Shown here: one piece after another, positions 3,001-47,136 of the stretch
Position numbering within the stretch: position 1 is the first letter of the stretch
Layout of the letters: each line of letters begins with the position of its first letter
Source of the DNA: Diphasiastrum complanatum
Lineage: Eukaryota; Streptophyta; Lycopodiopsida; Lycopodiales; Lycopodiaceae
Assembly (NCBI GenBank): GCA_029204225.1
Contig: CM055100.1
Span: 56,842,128 to 56,906,127, forward strand
Reading direction: 5' to 3'
DNA length: 64,000 nt
Made by a program: the position numbers and the translations under genes
The notes under the pieces: generated by a model
What the model was told of the DNA's origin: nothing
Database searches by the model: none
What the model saw: only the letters and a program-made list of their open reading frames with translations

Positions 3001-3002
3001 AG
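2..3002 (+). pseudogene. hAT-superfamily transposase-like gene (DUF659 + dimerisation region), decayed, 5' end outside window
   Basis: Transposase of the hAT class, acting on DNA in the nucleus. Exons that splice well: to 704, 834-1057, 1147-1479, about 1592-1800, 1890-2016, 2105-2287, 2394-3002. In order they encode an Ala/Pro/Ser-rich N-terminal stretch, a DUF659/RNase H-like core (SIMADGWTD, VVTDNASNC, WTPCAAHSLDLLL, TRFAYQFI, MGLIYEFMDR), the hAT dimerisation region (CERNWSAFSLVHTNRRNRL, NDLVY) and an acidic tail with GRGRP and GRPRGRPAKRG, which look like AT-hooks. Lesions: a TAG near 287, a frame change near 440-475 and a TGA near 1621 just before WEKFHRP. The exon 3/4 junction also does not keep phase. 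Splice sites otherwise match GT-AG. The zinc-finger end and terminal repeats are not visible. The family call is firm; exact exon 4 borders are not. Confidence 0.85.
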
Positions 3003-3162
3003 ATACTGATACACATTTTAGCATCATGTACAGTGGCATCAGATGTGATGTATATAATTTTTTACAGTCTATTTCTATCATGGCTGATTTATCGTGGTTG
3101 CTTACAAATGGTTAGCTCTGTGAAGTTTGAATGGTTAGTCAAAAATGGTTTGCTCCGTGCAA

Positions 3163-3164
<2 letters not shown>

Positions 3165-3205
<41 letters not shown>
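3165..3205. repeat. (GA)n microsatellite
   Basis: About 40 bp of uninterrupted GA dinucleotides just downstream of the hAT-like gene. It is the first of five GA tracts in the window. Confidence 0.97.
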
Positions 3206-3207
<2 letters not shown>

Positions 3208-3477
3208 AGCACATCTGCATCTCATTCAAACATTTACCATAAGACCCTAAACCCGACACCCCAACAAATGGCAAAGTTAACACAACACCCCAAACCCTAA
3301 CAAATCACCCTAAACCCACAACCCCACAGCCATAACCATCAAAAAAGCCACAAGCATAATCATCATCCATAAACATCATCAACCCCACCCACGTCCTCAT
3401 TGTGTCGTAGGCTTTGCACCACAGGTATGTGCAGATTCAACATCAAAGCTGCACTTTTGCAGCATACACTGAAACCT

Positions 3478-4262
3478 GCGTAGAATGTATCAATGGTCCA
3501 GGAATACAGGCGCGGGGTTTCGTGGAGCAGGTACGTACTCAAGGGACCGAGCCTGGCTCGATTCGGGTGTCGTCTGGTCAAAAATGGCCATTCGACGGGA
3601 TAGAAACGCAATTAGGTCAATCCAAATGGACTAGTTCTGCAGCTATCTGTCCGACGATCCCGTTTCTCCAAGCACTACAGGGAGTGAATGGTCACCAGTC
3701 GAGTGGATGGTCATCATAACTGTGTCATTCACTACCGGGAACCAGAAGACCTACTGGCTGGCCCGACGATGAGGGACCCTGTCCCGGACCATGGGAAGTT
3801 GTTCTTCGGTGAAGTTGATTCCAATCCGGTGCGTTTCCTCGCCCACGCCAGCTCGGTCAAAGGGGAGCAGGTCCGAGGACTGTGAGGGCACGTAGCTGCA
3901 GCTCCGGTAGTCGCCCCATTATCTCTCGCTGGCTCTCGTGAAATCCTCCTTCTAGCTTCCGTTTGTTGTGTCGGCGGACATCACCAGGACATGCTCCGAC
4001 TAGTTGCCCACGTGACGTCGACCCTAAACCCTAAACCCTAAATCTATCTCATCACGTAGGCCATGGTACTGTGTAGAACGCATCATCGGTCCAGGAATAC
4101 AGTCCACAGGTTCGTGATCCCGATACGAACCCAAGGGATCGAGCCTGGCTCGATTCGGGTATCGTTCGGTCAAAATGGCCCTTCGACTGGCGAGAAGCGC
4201 AATTAGGTCAAGCGAAATGGACTGGTTTTGCAACTCTCCGTCCGACGGCCCCGTTTCTCCAA
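3478..4262 (+). repeat. Pair of diverged direct repeats (about 190 bp each)
   Basis: Copy A (about 3478-3668) and copy B (about 4073-4262) share TGGTCCAGGAATACAG, GAGCCTGGCTCGATTCGGGT, a run beginning GGTCAAAAATGGCC, and a CCGTTTCTCC end. They lie about 595 bp apart in the same orientation and differ at many sites, so the duplication is old. Reading frames in them are short and not conserved between copies. I see no gene in 3003-4640. Confidence 0.75.
4022..4042 (+). repeat. Short interstitial telomere-like repeat (CCCTAAA x3)
   Basis: Three perfect CCCTAAA units lie in tandem. Looser CCCTAAA-like units also occur in 3244-3320. The unit is the Arabidopsis-type plant telomere repeat. Three copies are far too few for a telomere; this is an interstitial or telo-box-like site between the two direct-repeat copies. 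Confidence 0.85.
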
Positions 4263-4640
4263 ACGGGATCCGTTTCGGGTGCCGTCTGTTTCGGCCAGTG
4301 GACAACCTCGATATGAACCTGTGGGAACAAACAGGACGAGGAAACGATCGACGGTCGGGCCGCATCGTCCGTCCGAAGTTCAACGTTAAACAGGGCTTCA
4401 GAGACACTTTGTTCGGTCGGGGCCTGAAAACTGGGAGATGTTTCCGAGCCCCCGTGTTGGTACGCAAAATTTCGACATCATATTGTAGCAAGTTGGAGTA
4501 GTGCCATAACTAATTAGTAAGCTGTTGAAGTTCATCCGGGAAAAAACCGATCCCCTAAACCGAGTCACAATAGTGTATAGCTTGTCACTCTTTTGGTGAG
4601 CCCTAATTTCCCCCAGAGACTTCTGCTCCTGAGAGCTTGT

Positions 4641-5034
4641 TGACAAATTCCAAGGCCTAGCTATGGAGTATCATAAAAGCATAGTAAGCACACTATGAAA
4701 GCTTCAAAAAAACAGCTATGGAGTAGAACACAAAAGCAAGAGAGAGAGGACTTCAAAGCTCACACAACATGAATGAATATTCAAAGTGTAGTAGGGCGTG
4801 GAAACCCCTCCAAAGTTTGGGCTACATATAGCATGTTATGTATAGAGGTGGTGTCTTGCTAATTCTAGCTCTAGAACCCACATGGGTCCTTAACCTACTT
4901 GATTTACTTGCCTAATTAGCACAAGTGGGGTGTACTTTGTACATAAATGTTTTACCCCCATGTCTTATGCACAACTTACAAGTTACAAGTATACAAGCCT
5001 TCCTTAAGGGGCAGAATAGGCATTTATTTCAACA
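4641..5034 (-). repeat. Copia-1 3' LTR
   Basis: 394 bp, beginning TGACAAATTCC and ending TTTCAACA on the plus strand (TG...CA ends). It matches 9588-9977 nearly throughout. It is preceded by target duplication CTTGT. Confidence 0.95.
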
Positions 5035-6603
5035 CCCGCCCTCAATGGCTATTTTGTTCATACCAACACCTAGCATGCTACGAAACTTTTCAAATTTTTT
5101 TCTACTAAGTGCCTTAGTAAAGATATCTGCTGCTTGTTCGTTGGTATCACAGTACTCGGACTGAATTTCTCCCCTTTGTATCTTCTCTCGTAAGAAGTGT
5201 TGATCCACCTCAATATGCTTCGTACGAGCATGGTACACAGGATTTTTGGCAAGCTGGATGCAACTCTGGCTGTCACACTGAAGAATAGTAGGACCATCCT
5301 GTGGAATCTGCACCTCCCCAAGAAGTCTCCTGAGCCATATTGCCTCGCAGGCAGCTTTTGCCGCTGCCCTGTACTCAGCCTCTGTCGATGATAAGGTAAC
5401 TGTGGGCTGTTTCTTGCTACACCAAGAAATGGCCCCTAAACCAAGGTTGAAAGTGTAGCCTGTGGTCGACTTTCGATCATCCCTATCACCTGCCCAATCC
5501 GAATCGGTAAAGCCTCCAAGCTGAAGCTTTCCGTCATCTGTGTACTCAATCCCATAGCAAGTTGTCCCTTTAACATACCTCAAAACCCTCTTGGCTGCTC
5601 TCCAATGTGCTTCAGTTGGAGAACTCATGAACTGGCTTGCCACACCAACCGCATAGGAAATGTCTGGTCTCGTAGTGGTGAGATAAATCAGGCTACCCAC
5701 AAGCTGCCTATAAAGAGTCTCGTCCACAAAAGGAGTGCCATCATCTCTGGATGGCTTACTGCTAGTATCAATGGGCGTGGAAACGGGTTTGCAATCCTGC
5801 ATGTTGAACCTGTTCAAGACTTCACATGCATAGTTAGCTTGGGAAATAAACACACAGTTTTCCTTTTTCCAAACCTCCAAGCCAAGACAATAGTGGATTA
5901 AGCCCAAATCCTTCATCTCGAACTCATTTGATAAATGAGCCTTCACCTTTTCAATAAGCTGCCCATTGTTACCCGTGATTACCAAGTCATCCACATAGAG
6001 AACTATCAAAACAATGTTCCCATCTTCCTCCTTCACGAACAGGTTGCAATCCGACTGACTCTTTATGAATTGCTCCTTGGCAAAATAGTCGTCAATACGA
6101 CTATACCAGGCCCTGGGTGCCTGCTTCAAACCATATAAGGCCTTCTTAAGCCTGCATACCATACTTTCCTTGCCCTTAGCCTCAAAACCTTGTGGCTGTT
6201 CCATGTAGACTTCTTCAGCCAACTGTCCATTAAGAAAAGTACTCTTCACGTCCATTTGATGGACCTCCCAACCAAAAAATGCAGCCAATGCTAAAACCAA
6301 CCTGATAGACGTCATCTTAGCTACCGGTGCAAACGTCTCATCATAGTCCAAGCCCTCCTTCTGTGCATAGCCTTTAGCAACCAGCCTTGCCTTATGCTTT
6401 TCGATGCTCCCATCCGATTTGTATTTGGTCCTGTAGACCCACTTACAGCCAATAGGACGCTTCCCTTTTGGTAACTTCACCAAATCCCATGTATCATTCT
6501 TGAGAATGGAGTCGTACTCCTCTTGCATAGCATGTTGCCATACCTTCTCATCTGCTGCCTCAACGAATGTATGCGGATCTTGTGAATCCAAAATAGTAGT
6601 CAT
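5029..6603 (-). CDS. Copia-1 reverse transcriptase-RNase H part of pol
   Basis: A 524-residue frame holding the copia reverse transcriptase and RNase H, which copy element RNA into DNA in cytoplasmic particles. Visible motifs are WDLVKLPKGKRPIGCKWVYR at the RT start, FAPVAKMTSIR, DVKSTFLNG, ALYGLKQAPRAWY, the catalytic YVDD in LIVLYVDDLVITG (about residue 205) and TRPDISYAVG. RNase H follows with DSDWAGD, SSTEAEYRAA and HIEVDQHFLRE. The displayed ATG is not a biological start. The frame is a continuation of the polyprotein, cut off from the upstream part by a one-base frame change near 6605-6625. The frame runs to the polypurine tract and overlaps the 3' LTR by 6 bp. Confidence 0.93.
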   Translation of the reverse strand: MTTILDSQDPHTFVEAADEKVWQHAMQEEYDSILKNDTWDLVKLPKGKRPIGCKWVYRTKYKSDGSIEKHKARLVAKGYAQKEGLDYDETFAPVAKMTSIRLVLALAAFFGWEVHQMDVKSTFLNGQLAEEVYMEQPQGFEAKGKESMVCRLKKALYGLKQAPRAWYSRIDDYFAKEQFIKSQSDCNLFVKEEDGNIVLIVLYVDDLVITGNNGQLIEKVKAHLSNEFEMKDLGLIHYCLGLEVWKKENCVFISQANYACEVLNRFNMQDCKPVSTPIDTSSKPSRDDGTPFVDETLYRQLVGSLIYLTTTRPDISYAVGVASQFMSSPTEAHWRAAKRVLRYVKGTTCYGIEYTDDGKLQLGGFTDSDWAGDRDDRKSTTGYTFNLGLGAISWCSKKQPTVTLSSTEAEYRAAAKAACEAIWLRRLLGEVQIPQDGPTILQCDSQSCIQLAKNPVYHARTKHIEVDQHFLREKIQRGEIQSEYCDTNEQAADIFTKALSRKKFEKFRSMLGVGMNKIAIEGGC

Positions 6604-6836
6604 AAGTGCATAGTTTGTCTCCTGGTGTGTTGCTGGGCTTTCCTTTGAGACCTCCTAGCCCCTGGATTGCTGCTCTCTCCCTCATCCAATATCAAACCAT
6701 CCTGCACAGTTTGCCAATACCACTTGGGAAACTTCTTCCTTGCAGTTGGTGATGAAGACGGTGAATAGGACTCAACAGATTTGCCCCTTTCCTTCCGCTT
6801 CCTAGCCTCCTCGGATTCTTCCTCTTTGTCACTCAT
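6600..6836 (-). CDS. Copia-1 integrase-RT linker segment
   Basis: A 78-codon charged, Ser-rich stretch (SDKEEESEEARKRKERG, RRSQRKA) typical of the low-complexity linker between copia integrase and RT. It is in the same frame as the upstream gag-int reading frame and is separated from it only by the TAG at 6846-6848. It runs out of frame near 6605-6625, where the RT frame takes over. It is best read as part of one broken polyprotein, not an independent gene. Confidence 0.8.
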   Translation of the reverse strand: MSDKEEESEEARKRKERGKSVESYSPSSSPTARKKFPKWYWQTVQDGLILDEGESSNPGARRSQRKAQQHTRRQTMHL

Positions 6837-6845
6837 ATGATCATC

Positions 6846-9212
6846 CTAAGGCTCCCCAATATATGGATGTGGGTCATCAAGTATTGGCACAAATTCACTT
6901 GTACCATCCTCCATCTCAAGTTCCTCTATAGAAGGCGTTTGATCTTCTTCAAAGATCACATCTCGACTTATGATCCTCTTCTTGCTAGTAAGATCGTAAA
7001 GTCTGTAAGCTTTGCTTTCTTCACTGTATCCCAAGAAAATACACTTTGCTGATTTTGCATCTAGCTTCTTCCTGTTATCCTTGGGAATATGGGCATAGGC
7101 CGTACAACCAGACACTCGCAAAGCACCTACCTTGGGCTTAATGCCGCTAAATGCCTCTTCTGGAGTCTTGCCTGCCACAGCTTTTGTTGGACTTCTATTC
7201 AACAGAAAAAACACTATTGTGTGCATTGCCTCGCCCCAAAAAGAGTTGGGCAACCCCTTTGCCTTGAGCATGCACCTTGCACACTCCACAATAGTTCGGT
7301 TCTTTCTCTCTGCTACGCCATTTTGCTGAGGGGTATGAGGAGCTGTAAGCTGCCTTTTGATCCCATTGGCCTTGCAGAATTCCACAAATTCTGTCTTAAT
7401 GAACTCTCCACCACCGTCTGACCTGAGTATCTTTATCTTCTTTCCTGAATGTTCTTCTACCAAAGCTTTGAAATGCAGGAAGTACTTGAATGCTTCAGAT
7501 TTTAACTTCAAGAAATAAATCCAAATCTTGCATGAGAAGTCATCAATAAAGGTCATAAAGTAATATGCCCCCCTTGCAGATTTTGTTTGGGTTGGCCCCC
7601 ACAAATCTGAATGTATCAAGTCAAGTATGCCTGCTGCCCTGGTGGTGCTTCCCTTGGGAAACTTATGTCTTTGTTGTTTTCCCATAGCGCAAGCCTCGCA
7701 AACTGAAGAGCTTGGCTTAACAACTGGAAGCCCCTCCACCATATGATGCTGGTTCAACACCTGCATGCTTTGGTAGCCAAGATGTCCATACCTCTCATGC
7801 CACAACCTATCCACATCACTTCCTTTTGATGTATAAGCATGCCGACTAGGGATAGAAGTGTATAACCTGTATAGATTATCTTCCTGCAATACTTTGGCCA
7901 CAACCTTCATATTATCACTCAAGTCCAACACAAGACAAGAAGTAGCATCAAATTCTACTTTCATATTTTGTTGAGTGATAGATCCTACTGAAAGAAGATT
8001 TTTAGCAAGTCCTGGTACATATAAGACATTCTTAATGACTTTGACTTCTCCTGATGGAAGCTTTACAGGTACTGTGCCCTTTCCCTTGACCTTGTGTGTT
8101 GAGTTGTCACCTAGGCACACCTCTTGTCCATCACTAATCCCCACAAAGGTATCAAACCAATCCCTATGAGGGGTCATGTGCTTTGAAGCACCTGAGTCAA
8201 TGTACCAACCACCTGTCGTAGCTTGTGAAGCCAATGCAACAGAGAATAACTCAGCTTGCCTTATGTCACTCTGCTCCTCTCTTGCAACACTCTCAACAAC
8301 ATTTCCTCCTTGCTTCTTTGTGCCCTTCTTTTGGTCCGCAAGCTTCTTCCTGCACTCAAAAGCAAAGTGTCCATATTTACCACAGTAATTGCAATTCCCC
8401 TTCCTTCGAGGTGTGGAAGAAGTATTCGAGGAGGATTGTGCTTCTGACATCTGCAAGTTCTCCATTCCTTGCTCAAGTGTTTGTGGTGCTCCTTTGTTCT
8501 TGCCTTTACCTTTCTTCTTATCCTTAGCTGGATTTTGCTTCTTCTTAGAAGCAAAGGCATGCTCCTGGAAATCTTCCCTCTTGGAGAGATTAACTCTCCT
8601 CATCTCCTCCTGTAACAAGAGACCATAGACTTCTTCATAGGTAGGGATCTTCTCTCTCACTGATATCATCATCACAAAGTTCTGATAAGCATATGACAAG
8701 CTATTCAGAACTATTGGCACCAACTCTTTGTCAGCAATAGACTCTCCAAGTACAGAAAGCTGATATCTAATATCTTGAATCTTAGTAAGATGATCAGTAA
8801 CTGTCTCCCCTGTCTCCATTCTGAGAGTATACAACTTGTTCTTCAAGTAGAGAAACCTGGTTGTACTTGCTGTCTCATACAATGCACAAAGAATGTGCCA
8901 TGCATCCACAGGCCCTTTGGCTGACCTGATTAGAGGAATCACATTATCCCTCACTGACATGTTGATGATTCTGTGTGCCTTTTCCCCTCTCTTGATATAG
9001 TCCTTAAGTTCAAGTTCAGATGTTGGAACAGGCTCCTCACCTGTCACAAGCTTCCAACATTCTTTGTCTTCAAGAATGTTCTTGATCTTGAATTTCCATA
9101 TGCTAAAGTTAGTGCCATCAAGCCGGCTGGCTTCACTCAGCATGCTCTCTGCAAGACTAGACATAGCTGGATAGAAATAAAACACAAAAAGCAAACTGGG
9201 GTTTTTACCCAA
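6846..9212 (-). CDS. Copia-1 gag-protease-integrase part of the polyprotein
   Basis: A 788-residue frame. The likely true start is the internal Met 17 (MSSLAESML). Gag (UBN2-type) holds LDGTNFSIWKFKIK and LYLKNKLYTLRM. A CCHC zinc knuckle CNYCGKYGHFAFEC lies at 274-287. The aspartic protease signature is WYIDSGASKHMT, about residue 335. The integrase has its HHCC zinc region (HERYGHLGY...CEACAMGK) and DDE core (DLWGP, FIDDFS, RSDGGGEF, TPQQNGVAERKNRT). Gag packages RNA, PR cuts the polyprotein, and INT inserts the cDNA. The frame stops at TAG 6846-6848 within the linker, a likely loss-of-function stop because the same frame continues open for 78 codons. Confidence 0.94.
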   Translation of the reverse strand: MGKNPSLLFVFYFYPAMSSLAESMLSEASRLDGTNFSIWKFKIKNILEDKECWKLVTGEEPVPTSELELKDYIKRGEKAHRIINMSVRDNVIPLIRSAKGPVDAWHILCALYETASTTRFLYLKNKLYTLRMETGETVTDHLTKIQDIRYQLSVLGESIADKELVPIVLNSLSYAYQNFVMMISVREKIPTYEEVYGLLLQEEMRRVNLSKREDFQEHAFASKKKQNPAKDKKKGKGKNKGAPQTLEQGMENLQMSEAQSSSNTSSTPRRKGNCNYCGKYGHFAFECRKKLADQKKGTKKQGGNVVESVAREEQSDIRQAELFSVALASQATTGGWYIDSGASKHMTPHRDWFDTFVGISDGQEVCLGDNSTHKVKGKGTVPVKLPSGEVKVIKNVLYVPGLAKNLLSVGSITQQNMKVEFDATSCLVLDLSDNMKVVAKVLQEDNLYRLYTSIPSRHAYTSKGSDVDRLWHERYGHLGYQSMQVLNQHHMVEGLPVVKPSSSVCEACAMGKQQRHKFPKGSTTRAAGILDLIHSDLWGPTQTKSARGAYYFMTFIDDFSCKIWIYFLKLKSEAFKYFLHFKALVEEHSGKKIKILRSDGGGEFIKTEFVEFCKANGIKRQLTAPHTPQQNGVAERKNRTIVECARCMLKAKGLPNSFWGEAMHTIVFFLLNRSPTKAVAGKTPEEAFSGIKPKVGALRVSGCTAYAHIPKDNRKKLDAKSAKCIFLGYSEESKAYRLYDLTSKKRIISRDVIFEEDQTPSIEELEMEDGTSEFVPILDDPHPYIGEP

Positions 9213-9575
9213 CTAGGGTATGCAGCCACTTGCTCAATAACCCTCAGCTTCTGGATTTGAAACTATCCCCCTGTATGGCTGTCCTATCCATTGTCCAAGA
9301 TCCACTCAGAACTTTCACTGAAGTCCCCACTGTAGAAAGCGCCCTCCTACAGTCCTGGCTGTCCAAAAAGACTCAAAAAATTTTGTCCCAAATTAGAAAA
9401 TTTTTGGCTCCCTGTACTCCCCTTGCCAACAGTACTTCAACCATGCAGATAGCACAGAGATCAAATGCCCCTACAAAAAGTGCTCCCTCCTCAAAGGTAA
9501 GCTGCTCTCCAAGAATGGCAGGAATCTGATCAAAAACAGGTCCAAGCTTTCACCACACCACAGGCAACATAACCT

Positions 9576-20344: not shown

Positions 20345-22180
20345 CTCCTCCTAAAAATAATCTATATTGATTTGAACATGGATCTTGGTATAACTCCAAG
20401 ATTGGCTCTATGCTTGATGAAGGAACTTTTGCTCAAAGGTTTGCTGAGCATATCAGCAATACAAGATGATGTCTCGATGTGATCCAATTTGATTTCACCT
20501 CCAATGAGCTTCTCTCTCACGAAGTGATGTACAACTTCGATATGTTTGCTCCTTGCATGAAATATTGGGTTGTTGGCAAGGGCTTGGGCTGAAATGTTGT
20601 CACACATGATCACAGGTAGATCTTCTTCCATGATTATCTTTAGCTCCACTAGTAACCTCTTGATCCAAAGCACTTCCTTTGTTGTTGTAGTGAGTGCCTT
20701 GTACTCAGCTTCACATGATGAGAGAGATACAATATCTTGTTTTTTGGAAAGCCAAGATATCAAGTTTTCTCCAAGATATATGACATAAGCACTTGTAGAT
20801 TTTCAATTTGATCTATCACTTGCAAAATCTGAGTCAGAATAATCAATAATAGAAAGATCTTCACTTTTATACAATAAATCAAAATCAAAAGTTGAAGATA
20901 TATTTCTAAGCACTCTCTTGGCCATTTTCCAATGATAAACAGAAGGATTTTGCATAGCCTGGCTCAACTTATGAATACTAAAGCTTATGTCAGGTCTAGT
21001 TATTGTGAGCCAAATTAAGGAGCCTATAAGACTTCTAAAAAGTGTGATTTCCACAAAGGATCTTTCATCACCTTTGTTAGAGTCCTTTACATTTTTCTCC
21101 ATAGGTGTTTCTATACTCTTACAATTCAACATATTGAACTTTTTTAACATTGAAAGAGCATACTTGGATTGACATACAAAAGCTTTATCTTTAAGAAAGT
21201 CAATCTCTAATCCTAGAATATAGTGAATTTTTCCAAGATCTTGCATCTTGAATTAATTCCAAGTGCAATCTTGGTTTCCTCACCTGACTTGATGCAACTT
21301 CCTGTCAAAATGATATCACATAAATAAGAAGGATGACAATATCTTTATCAAAAAACTTGACATATAAGGAAGGATCATAGTTACTAAGATTAAATCCTAA
21401 TGACTTAAGAAAGGTTTTAAGTTGAGAATACCATGATCTTGGAGCTTGCTTTAATCCATATAAACTTTTGAAGAGCAAGCAAACTTTTTCTTTGTCATGG
21501 ATGAACCCAATAGGCTGATCCATATAAATCTCATCTTCTAGATACCCATTTAGAAATGCATTAGAGACATCTAATTGAAGAACTTTCCAATTTTAAAAAA
21601 AAGAAAGAGAAATTATGATTCTAATTGATACCATCTTTGCAACTGGAGCAAAGGTCTCCTCATAATCAAGTCCATAAACTTGAGCAAAACCTTTAGACAA
21701 AGCCTAGTCTTGTACTTGTTGATTGTGCCATCTTGATTATACTTGATTCGAAAAACCCACTTGCAACCGATGGTGTGCTTGTTGGATGGAAGATCCACAA
21801 GCTCCCATGTCTTATTGGCCATCAAAGCATCATATTCCTCCTTCATGGCAGGGTACCATTCCTTCGAGTTGAGAGCATCATATACATCCTTTGGCTCCTC
21901 ATGAGAAATAAAATAAGCACAATTAGTGGAGTTGATTTCCACTTGCTTGCCTCTATCTTCATAGGTAAGCCTTCTAGGCGTGGATCTTTCTCTTTGAGAT
22001 CTCCTTGGTGAAAAGATTTGAGGCGACTCCTCCTCAATTCTTGGCCTCATTTCTCCATGATAGTCTTCAAGAGTAATGATTGGAGTATCTTTGTGAGAAT
22101 CTTTGAACTCAGCCTCCTCAAAAATGTATTTTTGATCTTCATAGAATATAACATCTCTACTCTCAATTGAAGATCTCAAA
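20345..22180 (-). pseudogene. Copia-2: decayed RT-RNase H fragment
   Basis: Minus-strand pieces in copia order. A linker with SPRRSQRERS and the RT start WELVDLPSNKHTIGCKWVFR lie at 22179-21613. RT LYGLKQAPRSWYSQLKTFL is at 21523-21305, where the YVDD catalytic box is lost (the frame reads LLIYVISF). RT end/connection LGKIHYILGLEI and TRPDISFSIHKLSQ is at 21246-20803. RNase H SWLSKKQDIVSLSSCEAEY and HIEVVHHFVREKL is at 20763-20362. At least three frame breaks separate them. The 5' part (gag, PR, INT) is absent: copia sequence ends abruptly at about 22180, where the multi-gene cluster begins. Confidence 0.85.
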
Positions 22181-22197
22181 TTCAGTGTCCAGTCAGA

Positions 22198-23494
22198 AAA
22201 TGATATATGGTGGTTGGCAGCGTTTCAGGTCTAGCCTCATTACTACATTACATTCATTGAATAGTATTAATACATTGTAAACTAAGTATGATTAATTCTT
22301 TGGACAGGTGCTGAAAGAGGATCATGATATATTATCATGGATATTCTCAAGGACATCTTATCCTAGGATCATCAAGGACCATATGGATGGAGGATTTCTC
22401 AATGTTCCAGGAGTTGGAAACTTCAATGTTGAATGGCACTTAGCAGGTGATTTGAAAACATTGAAATGTATGTATAATGTCTCTCACGGTGCTACATCAA
22501 AACACCCTTGTTTGTACTGCATGAAAATGGCAAAAGATGTAACTAGGAGTACATGAATTACTAGAGAATATGCAGATCCAAACTGGAAGCCTGTGCCGCC
22601 TATCCCCTTAAAAAATGTGCATGTTTGCACTCTTCATGCAGAAGTTAGATTAATAGAATAGATCATTTATTTTCATATAGTTTTTGCTTGGAATACTAAG
22701 CCAACATCATTAGCAAATGAAGCTATCTCTCGATTAGAAGATGTCTTATCAAAAGCAGGACTCCATAAAGGACATGTCAAAATTTAAAAAGATGAAAAGC
22801 TTTTAGGAAAGAATGGGAACATGCCAACTAAGCCAAGCATAGGAGGAGCAAAAGCATGTAATTTTCTATCAAATCATACTGGTAAAGCTTCTAATATTCA
22901 ACACTCAGTCTGGACAGATATTATTGCTACCACTATGTTATTCGAGAAAGACGACAAAACTAGAGTACTAAAAGTTGATGTATAGAAAAAGCTTGATAGT
23001 ATGATTGCTATTTTAAGAAAAGAAAAATACTCTGATATTGATAAGAAAGCTGTCCAAAGGACTTGTGTCGAGTTTGTTAATGCAATATCAAAAGCATGGG
23101 GAGAAGATCACATCACTCATTACATGTATAGTATAAAATTTTCAAAATGCTTTCAAATTTTCATATATATTTAGATCTAAACATAAGACTAACATTATGA
23201 TTTTGACATATGCAGCACATACTAAGAGATCATACAACATTTTGTGCAAATACATATGGAATCTTGAGTGTATGGTCATCACAAGAGATGGAGAAGTCAC
23301 ACTAGCAAGCACGAGCAACATTTCATCGAAATACACAACTTGGAGGAACCAATGAAAAATGAAACTACATTTGTCAATTGTTTTAGTGGTTCTACTACAG
23401 AGTTCAAATTTGACATATAACAAAGTCCACACAATACAACAAGTTTAGAAAGGCATGCAAGTTCATACATGAAGAGAAAATTAGATGATTGTTG
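22198..23494 (+). pseudogene. Gene a: uncharacterised transposase-like protein, decayed
   Basis: Exon-like pieces: about 22198-22233 ending at a GT, then 22309 to about 23125 after a ...GGACAG acceptor, then about 23217-23494 after a TATGCAG acceptor. Readable blocks: NFNVEWHLAGDLKTLK, SKHPCLYCMKMAK (a CxxC-like pair), HVCTLHAEVRLIE, ANEAISRLEDVLSKAGLHKG, PSIGGAKACNFLSN, CVEFVNAISKAWGEDHITHY, GILSVWSSQEMEKSH and RATFHRNTQLGGTNEK. In-frame stops at several sites (for example after VTRST, LIE, KVDV and MEKSH) show it is dead. I recall proteins with GDLK...HPC..C and W-S-x-Q-x-MEKSH blocks from other eukaryotes, annotated as uncharacterised and transposon-like, but cannot name the family. The N-terminus is lost to the left. 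Confidence 0.55.
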
Positions 23495-23621
23495 AGTAGA
23501 AGATCATCATTGATGAGTAGAAGATCATCATGACATGTTCAGAATTGCTTTGCAAATTCATTGAACAAGAGAGGAGCAATACCCAATGTAAATGTATTGA
23601 TTGTATTATACAAAGTGTCAA

Positions 23622-25123
23622 CTATTCATCATCAGATCTTGTATCAGATTCTATGGTAGTATTGTCATGAAGAAATTCTCTGCTAGCGTATGCATCTAAT
23701 AGATGTGCATTATTCTTATTTCCACTAAACTCAATATAAGTGAAATACAATGAATAATGAGAGCTCCTTAAAGGAACATTCCCATCAATAAAGTCTAAAA
23801 TGTTCAAAACATAAGATCTTTTGACAAAAATGATCTTATTTGTCTTAACAAATTTATGTCTTCCTAAATAAAATGATAAAGCTTTAACTGCCATTATAAG
23901 ACTCTCCCCGATTGGGCTCAGTTCAGATCTCATTCTTCAAGAAATGCCGAAGATAGTGGCCCAGTCCACTGTCCCTCTGGAACGAGGATGTGTGTTGTCT
24001 GAAACCACCTTGTCTCGCAGCAAAATCATCTATTATGAGAGCATCTTGCAATAGGAAATATGCTAGCAAAAACACATTCAGCGATTGAAAACATTCAAAT
24101 GCAAGGAAGATTAAACACTTACACATTCTTCATCATCATCAGCAACCAGATCATGATGATCAATATAATGACCACGTACTGAAGTGGAATCATCAGTGAA
24201 ATGCATTAATGATGGACGAGGGAAGCCCATCTGGGATTGAAATGCTGTGAATTCTTCATCGGATGGTCTGCCTCGCCCATCCTCAGCTATATTTGATAAA
24301 GTCTTATTCAGACATTCTTCACCGGTCATAAGACCCTCCTCATCATCAAAATCAATACCAGCAACAAGGTCATCTATCTCAAAATCTACAAAGTCAGAGA
24401 ATTGGGATATTGTGCCAGATAATAAACATAGAACCTCGTCCTCACGATAGTCAAAAAATTTACATAAATCAGCAGTAGTAAAATATACATCGTCATTAAT
24501 ATAATATACAAGCAAGTTGAAAAGACATTTCGAATCCTCCATAGATTTGGATTCATCATCAGATGTATTTTGGCCAATGAAAGAATCCCGGAGAACATCA
24601 GTATTTAAATCAATGAAGTCACTTTCTTTATCAGGAGTGTCGATAAGAAAGTGACTGATATCCTTAATGGGTGACTGAACAGAGGAGGGTGCAAAAGGAG
24701 GGTCAGCAACAGGAAACTCATTATCATCTGGGATCTGAACTAAAAGAAAAAGTACAAAACCACTTTGATATTCAACCAATCAACATTTCTTGTTGCAATA
24801 CGGACACATAGAACTACTTTTGAAAAGATCAAAAATTTGGTGAACATTCTATCCAGTCTATGTCTAAAAGTTGAGAAGAAATGAACAAGATGAGTATAAT
24901 GCATGTACTGGAGTTGACTTTTGGAGAAAACAGGCTTGCTAAGTATGTCTCTGAATCTGACATAATGCTCATAAAATACGTCAGAATTTGGTTGTGCAGT
25001 CTTGAAAACATGTAGATATGGCATGAATAGGTTGTGGAACTAGTCCAGATTTTCAGTAATCCCAAATTCACTCAGAAATGAACTCAAGTCTGATTCTCAT
25101 GAGAATGATGAGGAAGAGGCCAT
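23622..25123 (-). pseudogene. Gene b: unrecognised acidic protein with three exons, decayed
   Basis: The ATG at 25123 starts a frame reading MASSSSFS, then stops at two TGA/TAG codons but otherwise continues as ESDLSSFLSEFGITENLD and a His/Phe-rich stretch. Exon 2 (24739-24123) opens after a TTTTTCTTTTTAG acceptor. It is strongly acidic (DDNEFPVADP, DDESKSMEDSK, DFVDFEIDDLVAGIDFDDEE, GRGRPSDEEF) and ends TGT followed by a consensus GTAAGT. Exon 3 (24029-23622) keeps phase and reads RDKVVSDNTHPRSRGTVDW, one in-frame TGA, then ALSFYLGRHKFVKTNKIIF to DTRSDDE. No known domain is evident. The total would be about 450 residues. It is divergent from gene c, so the two probably shared a promoter. Exon 1's donor is not certain. 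Confidence 0.5.
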
Positions 25124-25938
25124 GGCAGTAGCGTGAATATCGAACTTGTGCGCGCGAGAGAATTGGACCAAAACTAACTATCAAAATGACGCAGAAGATG
25201 GATATGTACGGTAGACAGATACAGAATATCGCACTTGTGTGCGAGTAGGTATACTTGCAAGCAAACGGACAGCAATGAGCGCGCACAAAAGCGATATGTC
25301 GCTAATTTTGAGAATGCAAAAGGTAAAAAATTATTCGGTTTTTGTGTCATTTATACTAAATTTTTGCACATGTGATCAACGGAGTTATGACACATGTCTA
25401 CTTTCAATTCGACACGTGTGAGATGACACCTGCACACGTGTGAAATGACACCTAGACATGTGTCGCATGTTCATTCGATTGCTCATAAACACGTGTCACT
25501 CTCGCATTTGATCGTACAAATCCCACACGTGTATTGTGACAGGGTGACACGTGTCACTTTCACATTTGTCCGTACAACTCCCACACGTGTGACAAGACAT
25601 TCTTTTGCACGTAAATCCCGATATAAAATCACAAATTTCGATGAATTTTCTTCACTTTTTTTTTTCGCTCCGCATATCGCATTTGTGTGCGTCCTTCACA
25701 ATCAAAATTTCTCCTACTACCTTCCATGCGCACAGGTCCGATATGTCTTCCTACGTGTCACCCCATATCGCACTTGTGCGTCTTTTCTCAAATCTCATCG
25801 TTCTCTCTGATATTCGGCTCGCATAGGTCCGATATACCATACATTCTGTTCGCACATAGCGGTCCTCTGCGAGTTCTTTATCATCCCTTCCTTCTCGTCC
25901 TAACCTTCACGCATTGGACTATCACATAGTTCACGCCC
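25124..25938. promoter_or_regulatory. Divergent intergenic region with two short-motif arrays
   Basis: Spacer between the start codons of genes b and c. Array 1 is a 16-18 bp motif of the form ATATCG-C/G-A-CTTGTG-(TG)-CG. Copies lie at 25137-25152 (+), 25226-25243 (+), 25282-25297 (-), 25674-25691 (+), 25729-25744 (-), 25765-25780 (+) and 25820-25835 (-). Array 2 is six ACACGTGT palindromes (G-box core CACGTG) at 25412, 25434, 25489, 25525, 25547 and 25583, with two further ACATGT variants nearby. The G-box array sits in the centre and the ATATCG motifs lie near both gene starts. G-box cores are known plant bZIP/bHLH sites; the ATATCG motif is one I do not recognise. A role as a bidirectional promoter is inferred. 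Confidence 0.65.
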
Positions 25939-27657
25939 ATGGATAGGAGAAAGCAGACAAGGAGAGACTTCTTCTCTCCTGGCTTATCCTCATCTCCTGC
26001 GGTTGCCATCACACCCCCTGCTAGACCTAGAACATGCAACTGCAGCAGGTGGCTCTCTGAGATACGCAAGTATCAGAGGTCAACAACTCTGTTGATCCCA
26101 AGAGCTCCATTCTACCGTGTTGTCCGGAACATAACAAGAAATGATCTCGGACAGCACGTTAGATTCACACCAAGTGCTCTTCAGTGCCTTTAGGAGGCTG
26201 CTGAAGATTATATTAGCCCTTTTTTTTTAGGATTCTTTTTTGCTTGCCATCCATACCAAGAGGGTTACCATAATGCCCAAGGATTTTCAGCTTCTGATGA
26301 GCATGAGGGATAGGTACTATAGATTACATGTATCTCAGCCTGATGCTCCTAGACCAACTCTTGTAGATAGGATTCATCTTCCTACGAAGCGTCCTAGGAA
26401 GCAGACAGCCCCCAAGCGTGCTCCTAAAAAAGTGAAGCCTATCCCAGAATCCATTGTAGATAATGTTGTTGTTGATAATGCTGTAAATATAGCTACCTCT
26501 ATTTTGGATACTCCTATAATTGCTGTAGATGCTACACTTCCACCTCCTCCTCCTCCTCCCAATTTCTATACATATATAGATTCGGATGATTATCTTAAAT
26601 TTGAGAAAGACATATCGGATGCTATAGATACAATTGATACTCCTTTTTGTTTTAGACTAGAAGAACTTGATTTTAGTATTAATTTTAGAGTTCTAGATTG
26701 CACAGACGGGCTTCTATCAGTGATCTTGTGATAGAGTCCGGGCTGACACTCTTGCAATTTGACATTGCAAGAGATTCATCAAACGAGTTGCTGGTGCTGA
26801 GTAACTTTTTGCTCCAGGCCTTCAAGGAGAATAATGACACATTGTCACAGTGTCTGACAAGTGGATTCACACCAGCAACAAAGTATCTGGTCATTCCTTA
26901 TCATACCAAGTAAGATATATTAAGTGTTTCTTCCTGTTTTATGCATTAACATTGACATTTTCAATTTAAATAGTTCTCAGAATTGCCGCTAAAGTACTTT
27001 TAATCTTATTTTGCAGTGACCACTAGAGTTTAAACCTGATATCTATTAAGAGATCTGTAAATAATACTATTAAATGTTCTTGTGTCAAGATGAATTCAGC
27101 GAGAAATACGCATAAGGATGTAGATATATTCATTCCATATCTAAGTAAAAATAATCCTACAAACGTTTTCCATTCCGTGGACTGGCAGATCGTCAGCTTG
27201 GAGGTAAACTCTGTCTTTCTTAATAGCATTTTGAAATCAGTATTCTAATGAAATATTTTCAGTCTAATTCATTCTGTTTCATAATTGATTTCTTGTGTGC
27301 TGAATTATTTTGCAATCACCCCAGCAAAATGATTCATTCAGCTGTGGGTGGTACACATTGTACAATGCCAAGCTGTTTTTTGAGTGGTTCATCCTTCAAC
27401 AAGATGTTGATATTTCTAAGATAATAAATTCGGTTTATTCTTATTTTGGAATCATGATTAGTTTTCTATTCTAGTGATGTTATTGGCCATTACTAATACA
27501 TGAATGTTCTATTTTGCAGTTTACATTTCCTGAGTACACATAAAGCCAGGTGTATAGATTTAGACAAGAAATTATCCTGAGTATACTGGCGCGGGCAAGG
27601 CTTCAGCCTCCCGTTATTGATGATGGTGCAAAGGATGATGTAGTTGTACTAAATTAA
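25939..27657 (+). pseudogene. Gene c: CENH3-like histone fold fused to a Ulp1/C48-type cysteine peptidase, decayed
   Basis: Starts ATGGATAGG with a basic tail (RRKQTRR). The histone part follows: SEIRKYQRSTTLLIPRAPF, VVRNIT, a loop, FTPSALQCL, then a TAG at 26191, EAAEDY, and after a one-base slip in a T8 run (26221-26228) LAIHTKRVTIMPKDFQLL. LLIP, RNIT, EAAEDY and KDF are closer to plant CENH3 than to canonical H3. The same frame runs on into KRPRKQTAPKRAPKKVKP and a proline run (to 26731). After a frame change come the peptidase exons to 26909, 27017-27203, 27325- and 27520-27657. They hold YLVIPYHTNDH then a TAG where Trp is expected, VDWQIVSLEQNDSFSCGWY (Q and catalytic C) and a C-terminal helix. 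Introns 1 and 2 here keep phase exactly. C48 peptidases cleave SUMO-like proteins, and Ulp1-like domains are known in plant transposons. A TAA at 27541 and a lost donor near 27418 add to the decay. Confidence 0.7.
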
Positions 27658-27853
27658 GATCTGAAAAAAATATAGATAGCATAGAACACAAATAAATGTA
27701 TAGACTTCATAGAAATATATACATTGATATATCAAATGCTACTCTAGTTTATGAATTTGGGAGCACAAAATACATGTATAGATGTCCAACTTGGGCTTTC
27801 ATTTATTGAATGAAAGGGTGTATAGACAGATTTTTACTAAAGTTTATTTGAAA

Positions 27854-29224
27854 CTATTGTTCTCTCACAATGGTGATTGTTGTAGGTAGATCTTTGCAGC
27901 ACGTTATCAGCTCCTGTCTTTTTCGCATCTATGACATGGCAAATATTAGTGAATGTGCAATTGTAAATGATGACATTTTCTATTATTTTGTTCTATTTTG
28001 AAATGGCAATAAACATAAAGTACTTACGAGTCTTCTGTTGATGATAAATATGAAATATGTTGGTAGATTGGTTTGTAATAGCATGAGCTCTGTTTTGATA
28101 AAATCAAGCTTCCAGTGCTCTTCCACCTCAACCATAGTCAAATATTCCTCATTGTAGATAATGCTTATCTCCATTCGGTTTGTGTGACCATTTAGTTCAA
28201 AGTCTTGATCCAGTGGTAGCCATGTACCTTCAATTTTCTTGTATCTCTGGTAGCTAAATGTGGGACTGAGCATTTGCTTTTCGATTTGATAACAAAAGAT
28301 CATTGAGGACTTTTTAATCCTGCATTCTATGTCATTATTTATTTTACTATCCCAGCCTTGATCCATGAGATCTGACAAAGTCTCATCTGATAAATTCTTG
28401 CAAACAAATAAAGTTGGTGTCCTACGAACACTAGCACTCGAGAAAAAATCAACAAATGTATGCAATGAGATAAACCAACTTAGGTGAACAATTTTTGAGC
28501 CTGTGCTTATCTTCAGCATTTTTAATATCAATGAGTAGCTTGCATCTCAAGGATTCAGAAACAATGTTGTCAGGAGTAGGCCACTCATCACTTTGAAAAC
28601 TCGGCAATGGAATTGCTTCAAGCTTGCCAAAACCTCCATCTGTTTGTGGCGTATATAAAGATCCATAAAAGTAGATACCACAATATGCAAGTTCCTTTGG
28701 ACTTCTTCCTCTGTATTGTAGCTTTCCAACATCAGAGTGAATCACGTCTATTATTCCTGCAAGTGATTGTGCGGGCTCCCATTCACTTATGCATGATGGA
28801 TATAAATCTGAAAGAAAAAAACAATGCTGAAGCATTTAAATCATAATCTGAAGAGCATCAATAAAGGAAATCACCTATGATTGCTGTAGAGTGCATATGT
28901 TTTGATATACTTACAATTACATTTTTTATGATCATGAGGATTGATATCATGTACTTTGATATTTGAATGCATATATACATGTTGCACTAAGACTTCTGAT
29001 ATCGATTGACCTCCTGAGGTAGTCTTAAACTCCAAATTTTTTGCTTTCCAATAAGATTTGTAAGTCATTTTTGCTCTTTTCTTTTGTCAAAAATTGCCCT
29101 TTGATGATGGATGCATCAATACCCATGAGTTCTTCGTACATTTTGTTGGCTTCCAGTTATCAGCTTCATCTTTCTCATTGTAAAGAATCACAAAATCGAT
29201 TGTAGATCTGGGTCTCCTCGCCAT
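27854..29224 (-). pseudogene. Gene d: unrecognised protein, three exons, lightly decayed
   Basis: The ATG at 29224 starts MARRPRSTIDFVILYNEKD. One TGA after SSKGNF interrupts exon 1 (29224-28915), which ends at a consensus GTAAGT. Exon 2 (28807-28028) follows a TTTTTCTTTCAG acceptor in phase and reads YPSCISEWEPAQSLAGIID, RGRSPKELAYCGIYFYG, PLPSFQSDEWPTPDNIVSE, then after a frame slip near 28500 HLSWFISLHTFVDFFSSAS, RRTPTLFVCKNLSDETLSD and WLPLDQDFELNGH. It ends at another GTAAGT. A short exon 3 (27928-27854) ends at TAG. The product would be about 390 residues. No signal peptide, membrane segment or known domain is obvious to me. It converges with gene c. An accessory role in the same element is likely but unproven. 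Confidence 0.5.
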
Positions 29225-29859
29225 TGCTATTGTCAAAGCTTGGGCACCAAAAATCTCTCTGATATGTTACTTGATTTTAATTTTTCGTATCACATTCAAT
29301 CTAATGTGAGTGCCAACATAGTCACAGTTACTGCGTATACCATATTCTATGTAACTGTACATACTATATTTCTATAAATGTAACTAGTATAGTTAGAAAA
29401 TTTCATTATACTAACCAGCATAGTAAAGTAAATTTAACTTGAGATATTGATGTCGGACAGATTAGCACGTGTCGGGCAGGAAAAAGAAACCAATGAGATA
29501 CGTCCATGCTGCCCGGACACAAATTTCGAAGTTTTCTATATTGCATTTTTATTTTTTGGTTAATTTGAACTACGTTATGTAGATTTCAAATCTGTGCATT
29601 TTGATTGGGCCTGGTGACGGTCGAAACTAAAGAAAAAAAATAAAAGTATCTTTACAAAGGGTCTTTTTGATATTGAGAACTCCTCTAATGTCTTGACTGT
29701 CTCTTTGCCTTCCACACGTATGGTGCTTGAATCTCTGAGGTAGATAAATTAATCTCTGTTGTAAGTTCCATATTCGGTAAACCATTCCTTTCAAGAAGTC
29801 ATGTGTTGGGTAGCACCGCTGTCCAGGTATCAGCTATCGTGGTCTCTGTTGCCACTGTT
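29225..29859. other. Non-coding right flank of the four-gene block
   Basis: No gene. It contains an inverted repeat at 29469-29522 (GTGTCGGGCAG against CTGCCCGGACAC, one unpaired base, about 30-bp loop) that would fold as a hairpin. If the block is a transposon its right terminus should lie here, but I could not fix it. Confidence 0.5.
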
Positions 29860-46171: not shown

Positions 46172-46846
46172 TCATGGTGTGAATGTCTTCTTTAATTGAT
46201 CAATTATAGCCTCATCCAGCTGGAAGGTCTTCTGAAGCACAGCATCTGGGATTCCAGAACCGAACAACGTGTTCTGAAGTCGCTCAACACCAGAATTCTG
46301 GCTGTTGAACACCGCCAATCCTACACCCGCAGTTCCTCCGATGTTATGCTGGAAGTGAACCAGTCCTCTGGGAATGATAAAGACATCTCCTTGCTCAAGT
46401 TTCTTGGAGAAAAGTGTATTGTTTGATGACACAAAACCCACTTCAAACCTCCCTTGCAGCGCGAAAAATAGCTCAGATGCGCGGGGGTGGACATGAGGAG
46501 GGTTGAGGCCGTCAGGCGCAAAGTCTGATCGCAGGATAGAAAGTCCCTGCGTGTTAAGAGCGGGCAGTTGAGGCACAAATGCAGGTGTTGGGACGAATCC
46601 AGTGGCAGAGTTGGCAGTGTTCGCTGCCGTGCGAAAACCTGTGAAGGCGAAATCATCTGCCTTCACAGATGAGGCGTCTTTGCAAGCGAATCCATTGACG
46701 TTAAGGCGGGAGCTAAGATCTGCGACACAGAAGTCTTGTAATGGGTCCTCGTCAGCTGCAAGTGTGCAACCACTAAATACCGTGAAAAACAACATGACAT
46801 TCATAGCCACAATCAGATTCAGAGCCTCAAACGCCATGGCGGCCAT
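46172..46846 (-). CDS. Germin-like protein (cupin), intact single-exon gene
   Basis: 224 codons with no break. Germin-like proteins are secreted, manganese-binding cupins of the cell wall; some have oxalate oxidase or superoxide dismutase activity. Residues 1-31 form a hydrophobic signal peptide. DPLQDFCVADL begins the mature chain, and C40 and C55 are the conserved disulphide pair. Cupin box 1 is GLNPPHVHPRASELFFALQG and box 2 is GDVFIIPRGLVHFQ. H118, H120, E125 and H164 are all four metal ligands. NNT at 142-144 is a glycosylation site. Length and order match the family. The first ATG was chosen; a second Met is at residue 4. The gene is surrounded by repeats yet undamaged, so it is likely functional. 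Which subfamily or enzymatic activity it has cannot be told from sequence alone. Confidence 0.95.
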   Translation of the reverse strand: MAAMAFEALNLIVAMNVMLFFTVFSGCTLAADEDPLQDFCVADLSSRLNVNGFACKDASSVKADDFAFTGFRTAANTANSATGFVPTPAFVPQLPALNTQGLSILRSDFAPDGLNPPHVHPRASELFFALQGRFEVGFVSSNNTLFSKKLEQGDVFIIPRGLVHFQHNIGGTAGVGLAVFNSQNSGVERLQNTLFGSGIPDAVLQKTFQLDEAIIDQLKKTFTP

Positions 46847-47136
46847 TACTAGTCCTATCAGCAGCTAATTCGATGAAGAGAACGTTGCCTGGAAATCTTA
46901 TTCCTTTGACATGGGTTCCTTTGATTCTTGTTGTTGCTGCGTTCTGATAAAACTTCAGAGAGCTTCCTTATGTAGGTACATGGACAAAGGAACCACAGTT
47001 CGAGTACAGGATGCCTTTGATTTTGTTGTTGCTGCGTTGTGATAAAACTTCAGAGAACCACAGTTCGAGTGCCGGATTGAAATTACTGCAGGTCACCTAG
47101 AACCCATCTAAACACGATGTATCTGGACAGCTAAAA

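Follow-up and report, generated by a model that had tools for sequence, protein, structure and literature searches.

A histone H3-like gene in a group of four-gene DNA transposons of Diphasiastrum complanatum, joined in one family to a C48-type domain

A gene whose protein joins a histone H3-type fold to a C48-type (Ulp1-like) domain is carried in Diphasiastrum complanatum by a DNA transposon present in hundreds of copies in the same plant genome. The stretch of DNA analysed here, a window of 64,000 nucleotides, holds at 25939-27657 a dead copy of this gene, which is intact elsewhere in the genome. To judge from homologous genes, at least two transposon families, A and B, count a histone among their genes. 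Our reading, held at about even confidence, is that a group of four-gene DNA transposons encodes its own H3 variant, fused in family A to a C48 domain, with the net effect of opposing silencing or helping transposition. Plants silence transposons through H3K9 methylation together with DNA methylation and, if the reading is true, an H3 that lacks Lys9, encoded by two or more families that share their genes, would be a direct counter-move to silencing. The sequence-only reading of the window had proposed the fusion; the element ends, the other genes of the element, family B, the further type C and the acidic residue at position 9 of the histone tail go beyond it.

The copy in the window

The window copy of the family A element is truncated at its 5' end. 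It corresponds to positions 1851-9384 of a 9384-bp copy on C14, the first 1,850 bp being missing, and Copia-like sequence adjoins it at 22169; its boundaries recur in other copies. Its features are as follows.

22169..29690, plus strand: family A copy, 5'-truncated (blastn 93.8% over 7574 columns against the C14 copy)
22169..23450, plus strand: remnant of the transposase-like gene (open reading frames; family B homologue, tblastx E 4e-103)
23622..25123, minus strand: gene 2, broken, for an acidic protein with a CPYC..C motif (open reading frames; family B homologue, tblastx E 8e-10)
25389..25600, no strand: cluster of CACGTG-type palindromes in the spacer that separates gene 2 from the histone gene (direct and inverted repeats)
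25939..26909, plus strand: exon 1, with H3-like tail, H3 fold, basic/Pro linker and the start of C48
27017..27203, plus strand: exon 2, C48 with the DHW motif, here DH-stop at 27024-27026
27316..27420, plus strand: exon 3, C48 with the SPQQNDSFSCG motif; acceptor AG changed to AA, next donor GT to AT
27520..27657, plus strand: exon 4 and stop, with a premature TAA at 27541-27543
27983..29224, minus strand: gene 4, kept between families A and B (open reading frames; family B homologue, tblastx E 8e-32)
29656..29690, minus strand: right terminal inverted repeat (TIR), outer end CATTAGAGGAGTTCTC..., 35/35 against the inverted left end of the C14 copy

The damage to the histone-C48 gene is extensive, and most of it is shared with the copy at locus L003. 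In exon 1 there are a TAG (26191-26193), a single extra base in poly-T near 26225 and a 13-nt deletion near 26706, and the splice donor at 27421 is lost. The Trp-to-stop change that had been noted after DH was borne out, the window having TAG at 27024-27026 where loci L016 and L012 have TGG. In the window the linker (26231-26731) is read in one frame and C48 (from 26689) in another, owing to a single gap of 13 nt; in copies on C7 and C5 one frame covers both. The start proposed for exon 3 had to be moved by 9 nt, since relatives splice between TTTTGCAG and TCACCCCAG to give SPQQND, at a point where the window has AA for AG. The Pfam Histone profile scored 85.8 bits (E 3.6e-24) on the stretch from 25939 to roughly 26700, read through with an X in place of each of the two breaks, and the H3 blocks are thus where they had been placed. 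The Peptidase_C48 profile matched the hand-spliced window exons (X at the stop, exon ends inexact) at 23.7 bits against a cut-off of 20.7 (E 5e-5), which supplies the C48 match for 26700-27657; single window exons gave no match to this profile, nor did a PDB search with the hand-spliced C48 read, its exon ends likewise inexact.

The fusion gene in intact copies

The reference for the intact gene is locus L016, which encodes 470 amino acids ending in VVLN, in the order H3-like tail, H3 fold, Pro/basic linker and C48, across three introns of 107, 111 and 99 bp, every one GT-AG. Its Pfam Histone match covers residues 27-123 (97.3 bits, E 1e-27) and its Peptidase_C48 match residues 316-442 (42.2 bits against the cut-off of 20.7, E 1.1e-10), and the occurrence of both profile matches in one L016 protein led us to reject a chance explanation. 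Copies on C7 and C5 contain a single 331-codon open frame that begins upstream of the Met and runs through the tail, fold and linker into the start of C48. As histone, linker and C48 start lie in one exon of intact copies, the fusion of the two domains in one gene is real, and the sequence-only reading was right on this point; other genome copies that join both, whose absence would have counted against it, exist.

Twenty-three loci (L003, L007, L008 and L010-L029, L016 included and L026 half masked) were compared on the L016 gene. Six are free of stops and frameshifts and have all splice sites (L012, L013, L015, L016, L018 and L023, with nine extra bases at one place in L015), a proportion that is not a genome rate because most loci were picked for long frames; the other 17 are broken or incomplete.

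The best PDB matches for the second part of the L016 protein were Ulp1-like proteases (6dg4, E 9e-4; 1euv, E 1.3e-3). The catalytic set of C48 peptidases, which we take to be His, Asp, Gln and Cys, is represented by His (in DHW), Gln (in PQQ) and Cys in L012, L013, L015, L016 and L018; in L023, whose frame is intact, Tyr replaces the catalytic Cys. Like yeast Ulp1, the transposon domain has the HW, PQQ and (S/N)CG motifs in order, and unlike it, in what is a weak similarity, it has no Asp aligned to the triad Asp. Protease activity is uncertain because the catalytic Asp lacks this counterpart, and the domain may bind SUMO rather than cut it.

The transposon

The genome of the same plant (1.745 Gb in 5,176 contigs, those used here with numbers from C1 to C23 having chromosome size, 44-102 Mb) was searched with a 166-residue histone-linker piece, which gave 5,863 first-look candidates; all 150 that were scored matched at E 7.2e-77 or better and were 84 to 100% identical. 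Full-length family A elements measure 9,384 bp on C14, 9,377 bp on C5 (left tip damaged) and 8,681 bp on C7. Their ends start with CATTAGAGGAGTTCTC and form perfect 35-bp TIRs, the right end in the window, once inverted, agreeing with the C14 left end at 35/35 positions. In the comparison of copies, the right end at window 29690 was common to 11 of 20 ten-kb copies, and both ends were found in two copies and, with its left tip damaged, in a third. TIRs therefore bound dispersed copies of a many-copy element, and the sequence-only reading had correctly assigned the gene to a transposable element. No target-site duplication was seen in the flanks of the C14 copy, the C7 copy and one short relative (three pairs compared); transposition of family A is suggested by the element ends together with the copy number.

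Full copies have four gene clusters, namely the transposase-like gene (plus strand), gene 2 (minus), histone-C48 (plus) and gene 4 (minus), and a Pfam search with the three genes other than histone-C48 gave nothing above cut-off. The transposase-like gene contains GDLKTLKCMYN...PCLYC and, in intact copies, the E motif SQGMEKSHWQARAAF, and by eye reads as a putative DDE-type gene. None of the transposase pieces matched a Mutator-type Pfam profile with E values of up to 1 allowed, and one family B piece had chance-level hits (E 0.08-0.13). Membership among the Mutator-like VANDAL/KIU elements was not supported, there being no MULE transposase profile match. The CACTA (En/Spm) superfamily has CACTA ends and a 3-bp duplication; membership in it was not supported either, as the ends here are CATTAG and the duplication was not seen in the flanks. 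An IMG/VR scan with the linker protein returned zero relatives, and the one IMG/VR contig that matched a transposase piece was a phage by its reading, its similarity being put down to chance.

Within the spacer that precedes the histone-C48 gene, three full copies contain 5, 4 and 5 exact ACACGTGT sites of the CACGTG type (counted without a shuffled control), and in all three these are confined to this spacer, where they form a possible binding array.

Two smaller repeats accompany the copy at L024. A 377-bp short element (L024 8744-9120, minus strand) has CATTAGAGGAGTTCT ends that resemble those of family A at 78% over 120 bp; it was scored at 40 places among 2,595 candidates, almost always at full length and with 93-100% identity, and is probably a short non-autonomous family. 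Beside the L024 copy, a stretch at L024 881-1257 on the plus strand, the first 308 bp of which were repeated at most of 40 scored places (4,607 candidates), appears to be a separate repeat, other than the 377-bp element.

Families B and C

A genome search with the Pfam Histone profile produced 153 matches from 150 scored of 6,325 candidates, which fell into bands of 163.7-165 bits (13 matches, taken to be the host H3 genes), 110 to 95 bits, and 83-84 bits (three matches). Eleven stretches from the middle band proved to be ten of family B and one of type C, with 41-45% identity to A in the best-matching tblastn segment. The family B protein on C156 is encoded in one frame of 412 amino acids, opens with MARTKQTARD, continues through a long Pro-rich insert into the H3 fold and ends in RRERN. 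Family B histones have no C48, and the C48 domain is therefore not essential to the role of the histone. The other three genes have B homologues as well: that of gene 4 on a C17 copy (tblastx E 8e-32), and those of the transposase-like gene and gene 2 on a C21 copy (E 4e-103 and E 8e-10). Assembled as a composite of the C17 and C21 copies rather than from one copy end to end, the B gene set has the same gene order as A, with gene 2 and the histone gene inverted. Family B is represented by L040 with L051, L041 with L052 and L055, L042 with L054, and L044 with L050.

Type C is represented by L047 with L053 on C13. Its fold is 47% identical to that of A and its frame is broken between tail and fold in the C13 copy; its place in a transposon is suggested by recurring tail codons, the histone stretch alone having been read. 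The histone folds of A and B are about 50% alike.

The histone fold

The sequence-only reading had called the histone centromeric, or CENH3-like, and this part of it was not established. Over the family A fold, identity is 56% to plant H3 and 51-52% to the Arabidopsis and rice CENH3 sequences used here, PDB H3 chains match the histone at E 1e-23, and when a profile of the transposon histones was run against the PDB, the best 60 of 175 chains were all H3 by name. In those CENH3 sequences loop 1 is two residues longer than in H3; relative to H3, loop 1 is one residue longer in A and of equal length in B and C. A search with the window sequence by itself did place fission-yeast Cnp1 (CENP-A) in the best 60 chains, at E 3e-19 against 5e-20 for the top H3, and CENP-T and CENP-S profile hits on the L016 protein were weak and below cut-off. 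The LIPxAPF motif is real, resembles plant CENH3 and occurs also in family B. A histone tree gave no firm branching among A, B, C, H3 and CENH3, the nodes that decide it having supports of 56 and 59. The transposon histone would seem to be a distinct variant with an H3 or H3/CENH3 origin.

In an alignment of nine transposon histones (five from A, three from B, one from C), RAPF and 26 columns in all are invariant. The H-x-KRVT segment, which has a role in histone contacts, is kept in the transposon histones along with much of the fold. AlphaFold on the 331-residue exon, run with no alignment, gave a mean pLDDT of 34 and no usable fold.

The histone tail and its ninth position

The tails begin with MDRRKQTRRD in A, MARTKQTARD in B and MARTKQTARE in C, where H3 has ARTKQTARK. 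Most A, B and C copies thus keep R2, K4, Q5, T6 and R8, and in most copies read the methylatable Lys9 of H3 is replaced by Asp or Glu. Exact MDRRKQTRR was found at 487 places in the genome (reversed-pattern control, 0), followed by Asp or Glu in 441 and by another residue in 46. MARTKQTAR followed by Asp or Glu occurred at 108 exact places (reversed control, 0) and followed by Lys at 26, two of them with C-type codons and the other 24 taken to be host H3; as Asp/Glu and Lys were what was counted after MARTKQTAR, the acidic share in B and C is not an unbiased rate. Exceptions exist in family A, with Lys2 in L018 and Asn9 in L013 among nine printed rows, and in family B, with Gln2 in one of four copies. 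By eye there is no K27 context in the transposon tails; set against an H3 tail with K4, K9 and K27 sites, they retain the K4 context, with position 9 acidic in most A copies and in the B and C copies read.

Four further places with MARTKQTAR and an acidic residue (C1:21316407, C1:21456426, C23:7189335 and C13:7090387) have codons unlike those of B and C, and are possible further families.

Selection among family A copies

Twenty-four related rows (the window and the 23 loci, some of them near-duplicates) were aligned, and omega was 0.37 for C48, 0.55 for the histone fold, 0.98 for the tail and 1.08 for the linker. The expected share of amino-acid changes was drawn from the mutation spectrum of the introns, stop-making changes being excluded, and the p values given here come from ten tests, uncorrected. 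Variants present in at least two copies showed a deficit of amino-acid changes: 113 of 176 overall, against 73% expected (p 0.0075), and 44 of 80 for C48, against 70% expected (p 0.004). In the histone part the count was 37 of 56, short of significance (p 0.19). For variants in at least three copies the values were 0.033 overall, 0.018 for C48 and 0.28 for the histone. Neither the linker (p 0.57) nor the singletons (p 0.16 overall) showed a shortage of amino-acid changes. Copies look mostly neutral once inserted, with constraint acting in the active lineage and clearest for C48; for the histone, the indication of constraint comes mainly from the comparison of A, B and C, with its 26 invariant columns over nine sequences.

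In the introns of the 24 aligned copies, C-to-T and G-to-A changes are strongly over-represented, a pattern that heavy methylation of transposons would lead one to expect.

Relation to known systems

Several known elements share some of these features. Among the Mutator-like VANDAL elements of Arabidopsis, some VANC/KIU (Kaonashi) proteins carry a Ulp1 domain (PMC13317346, available text), and VANC strips DNA methylation from its own elements (PMC5735166, available text). They resemble family A as plant DNA transposons with an extra gene next to the transposase, and with Ulp1 in some; they differ in that VANDAL elements are termed non-TIR (PMC13317346) and family A has perfect TIRs, another transposase and an H3 fold in its C48 protein. 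The word histone is absent from the main text of the VANC/KIU review (PMC13317346), as far as that text was available. In Pseudocercospora fijiensis and its relatives, a hAT transposon has amplified histone H3, the gene having been captured as a transcript or retrocopy and its copies inactivated by RIP (PMC6710886, available text). This too is H3 sequence multiplied by a DNA transposon, but the present case has open frames, two diverged families, an acidic position 9 and the C48 fusion. Ginger1 transposons carry Ulp1 or OTU domains in the transposase (PMC2836005, available text) and so share with family A a C48 domain inside a transposon protein; there it sits on an integrase-type transposase, here on a histone.

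With regard to canonical H3, the transposon histone shares the fold (56% identical) and, in most copies, R2, K4, Q5, T6 and R8, but has mostly Asp or Glu at position 9, a different remaining tail, and either a long C-terminal extension (A) or an insert after the tail (B). In the literature available to our search, which had subscription papers and Repbase outside its scope, there was no match for a transposon histone-C48 fusion or for a transposon H3 with an altered position 9. Within the same scope, a transposon histone fused to C48 would be without precedent even if its role were transposition.

Proposed role

The transposon H3 variant is probably an anti-silencing factor or a transposition cofactor. 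It would pair with H4 and enter, or dock on, nucleosomes at transposon DNA, which we infer because H-x-KRVT and much of the fold are kept. Such nucleosomes would offer the K4 end of the H3 tail with no methylatable Lys9, and, Lys9 being absent, K9 methylation of the transposon histone would not occur. In family A the C48 module would be brought to transposon chromatin, there to cleave or bind SUMO, and silencing would be weakened or transposition helped, much as VANC/KIU act on VANDAL elements. In a bolder form, which we offer tentatively and with less than even confidence, a superfamily of plant DNA transposons would carry as standard an H3 variant gene with K4 kept and Lys9 made acidic, the nucleosomes on the element would be K9-proof, and one family would have added the C48 domain. 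If true, a mobile element would be swapping the histone substrate of silencing, and the variant would be a natural tool with which to write K9-proof chromatin; whether a selfish element can escape silencing via a changed histone itself becomes a testable question.

The serious rival, to which we give a real if minor share of our belief, is that histone-C48 serves transposition, packaging the element DNA or handling SUMO-regulated repair at excision or insertion, and is not involved in silencing. Ginger1 transposases include Ulp1 and OTU domains, for which a repair role has been proposed (PMC2836005, available text), and in both A and B the histone is kept alongside the transposase, which fits such a service; it leaves unexplained, however, why three histone types keep K4 and have a mostly acidic position 9.

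The gene might instead be a passenger, a host H3 (or CENH3) gene caught accidentally by a transposon and now decaying, and capture of H3 by transposons is documented for the hAT of Pseudocercospora (PMC6710886, available text). The 17 broken or incomplete loci, the broken window copy and the weak selection on the histone inside family A are what this would predict. Against it, intact copies exist, A and B both maintain an open H3 fold amid three homologous genes though the folds are only about half alike, and RAPF and the other invariant columns have persisted over the nine A, B and C sequences. We consider mere decay quite unlikely.

It is very unlikely, in our view, that the protein is a centromere-directed factor, its histone derived from CENH3 and steering the element to centromeric chromatin. 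The LIPxAPF motif, the extra loop 1 residue in A, the sub-cut-off CENP-T/CENP-S hits and the presence of Cnp1 among the best 60 chains for the window sequence point that way, and some plant retrotransposons are described, in the sources available, as using CENH3 chromatin; yet the fold resembles H3 more than it does the CENH3 sequences used, the best 60 chains for the family profile are H3, and the loop is no longer than that of H3 in B and C. Moreover, 70 copies on C1, C2, C3 and C5 (among the matches listed, 100 of 441, with C4 and C6 excluded) are evenly spread (pooled KS p 0.34), a result that concerns insertion along the chromosomes rather than distance from centromeres or protein deposition.

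That two adjacent genes were taken for one, as the different frames of the two parts in the window might suggest, is barely credible and was rejected at the DNA level, the single open frame of the C7 and C5 copies spanning the histone Met to the C48 start and no Met opening the C48 frame in the window.

Other sequences in the window

Outside the family A copy, the left end of the window (339-2600) holds a GC-rich fragment that is hAT-like by eye, and there are reading frames that by eye are Copia-like; these and the germin-like frame described next point to nuclear DNA of a plant. Among the Copia elements lies an open germin-like frame on the minus strand at 46172-46864 (oxalate oxidase 1, E 1.2e-46).
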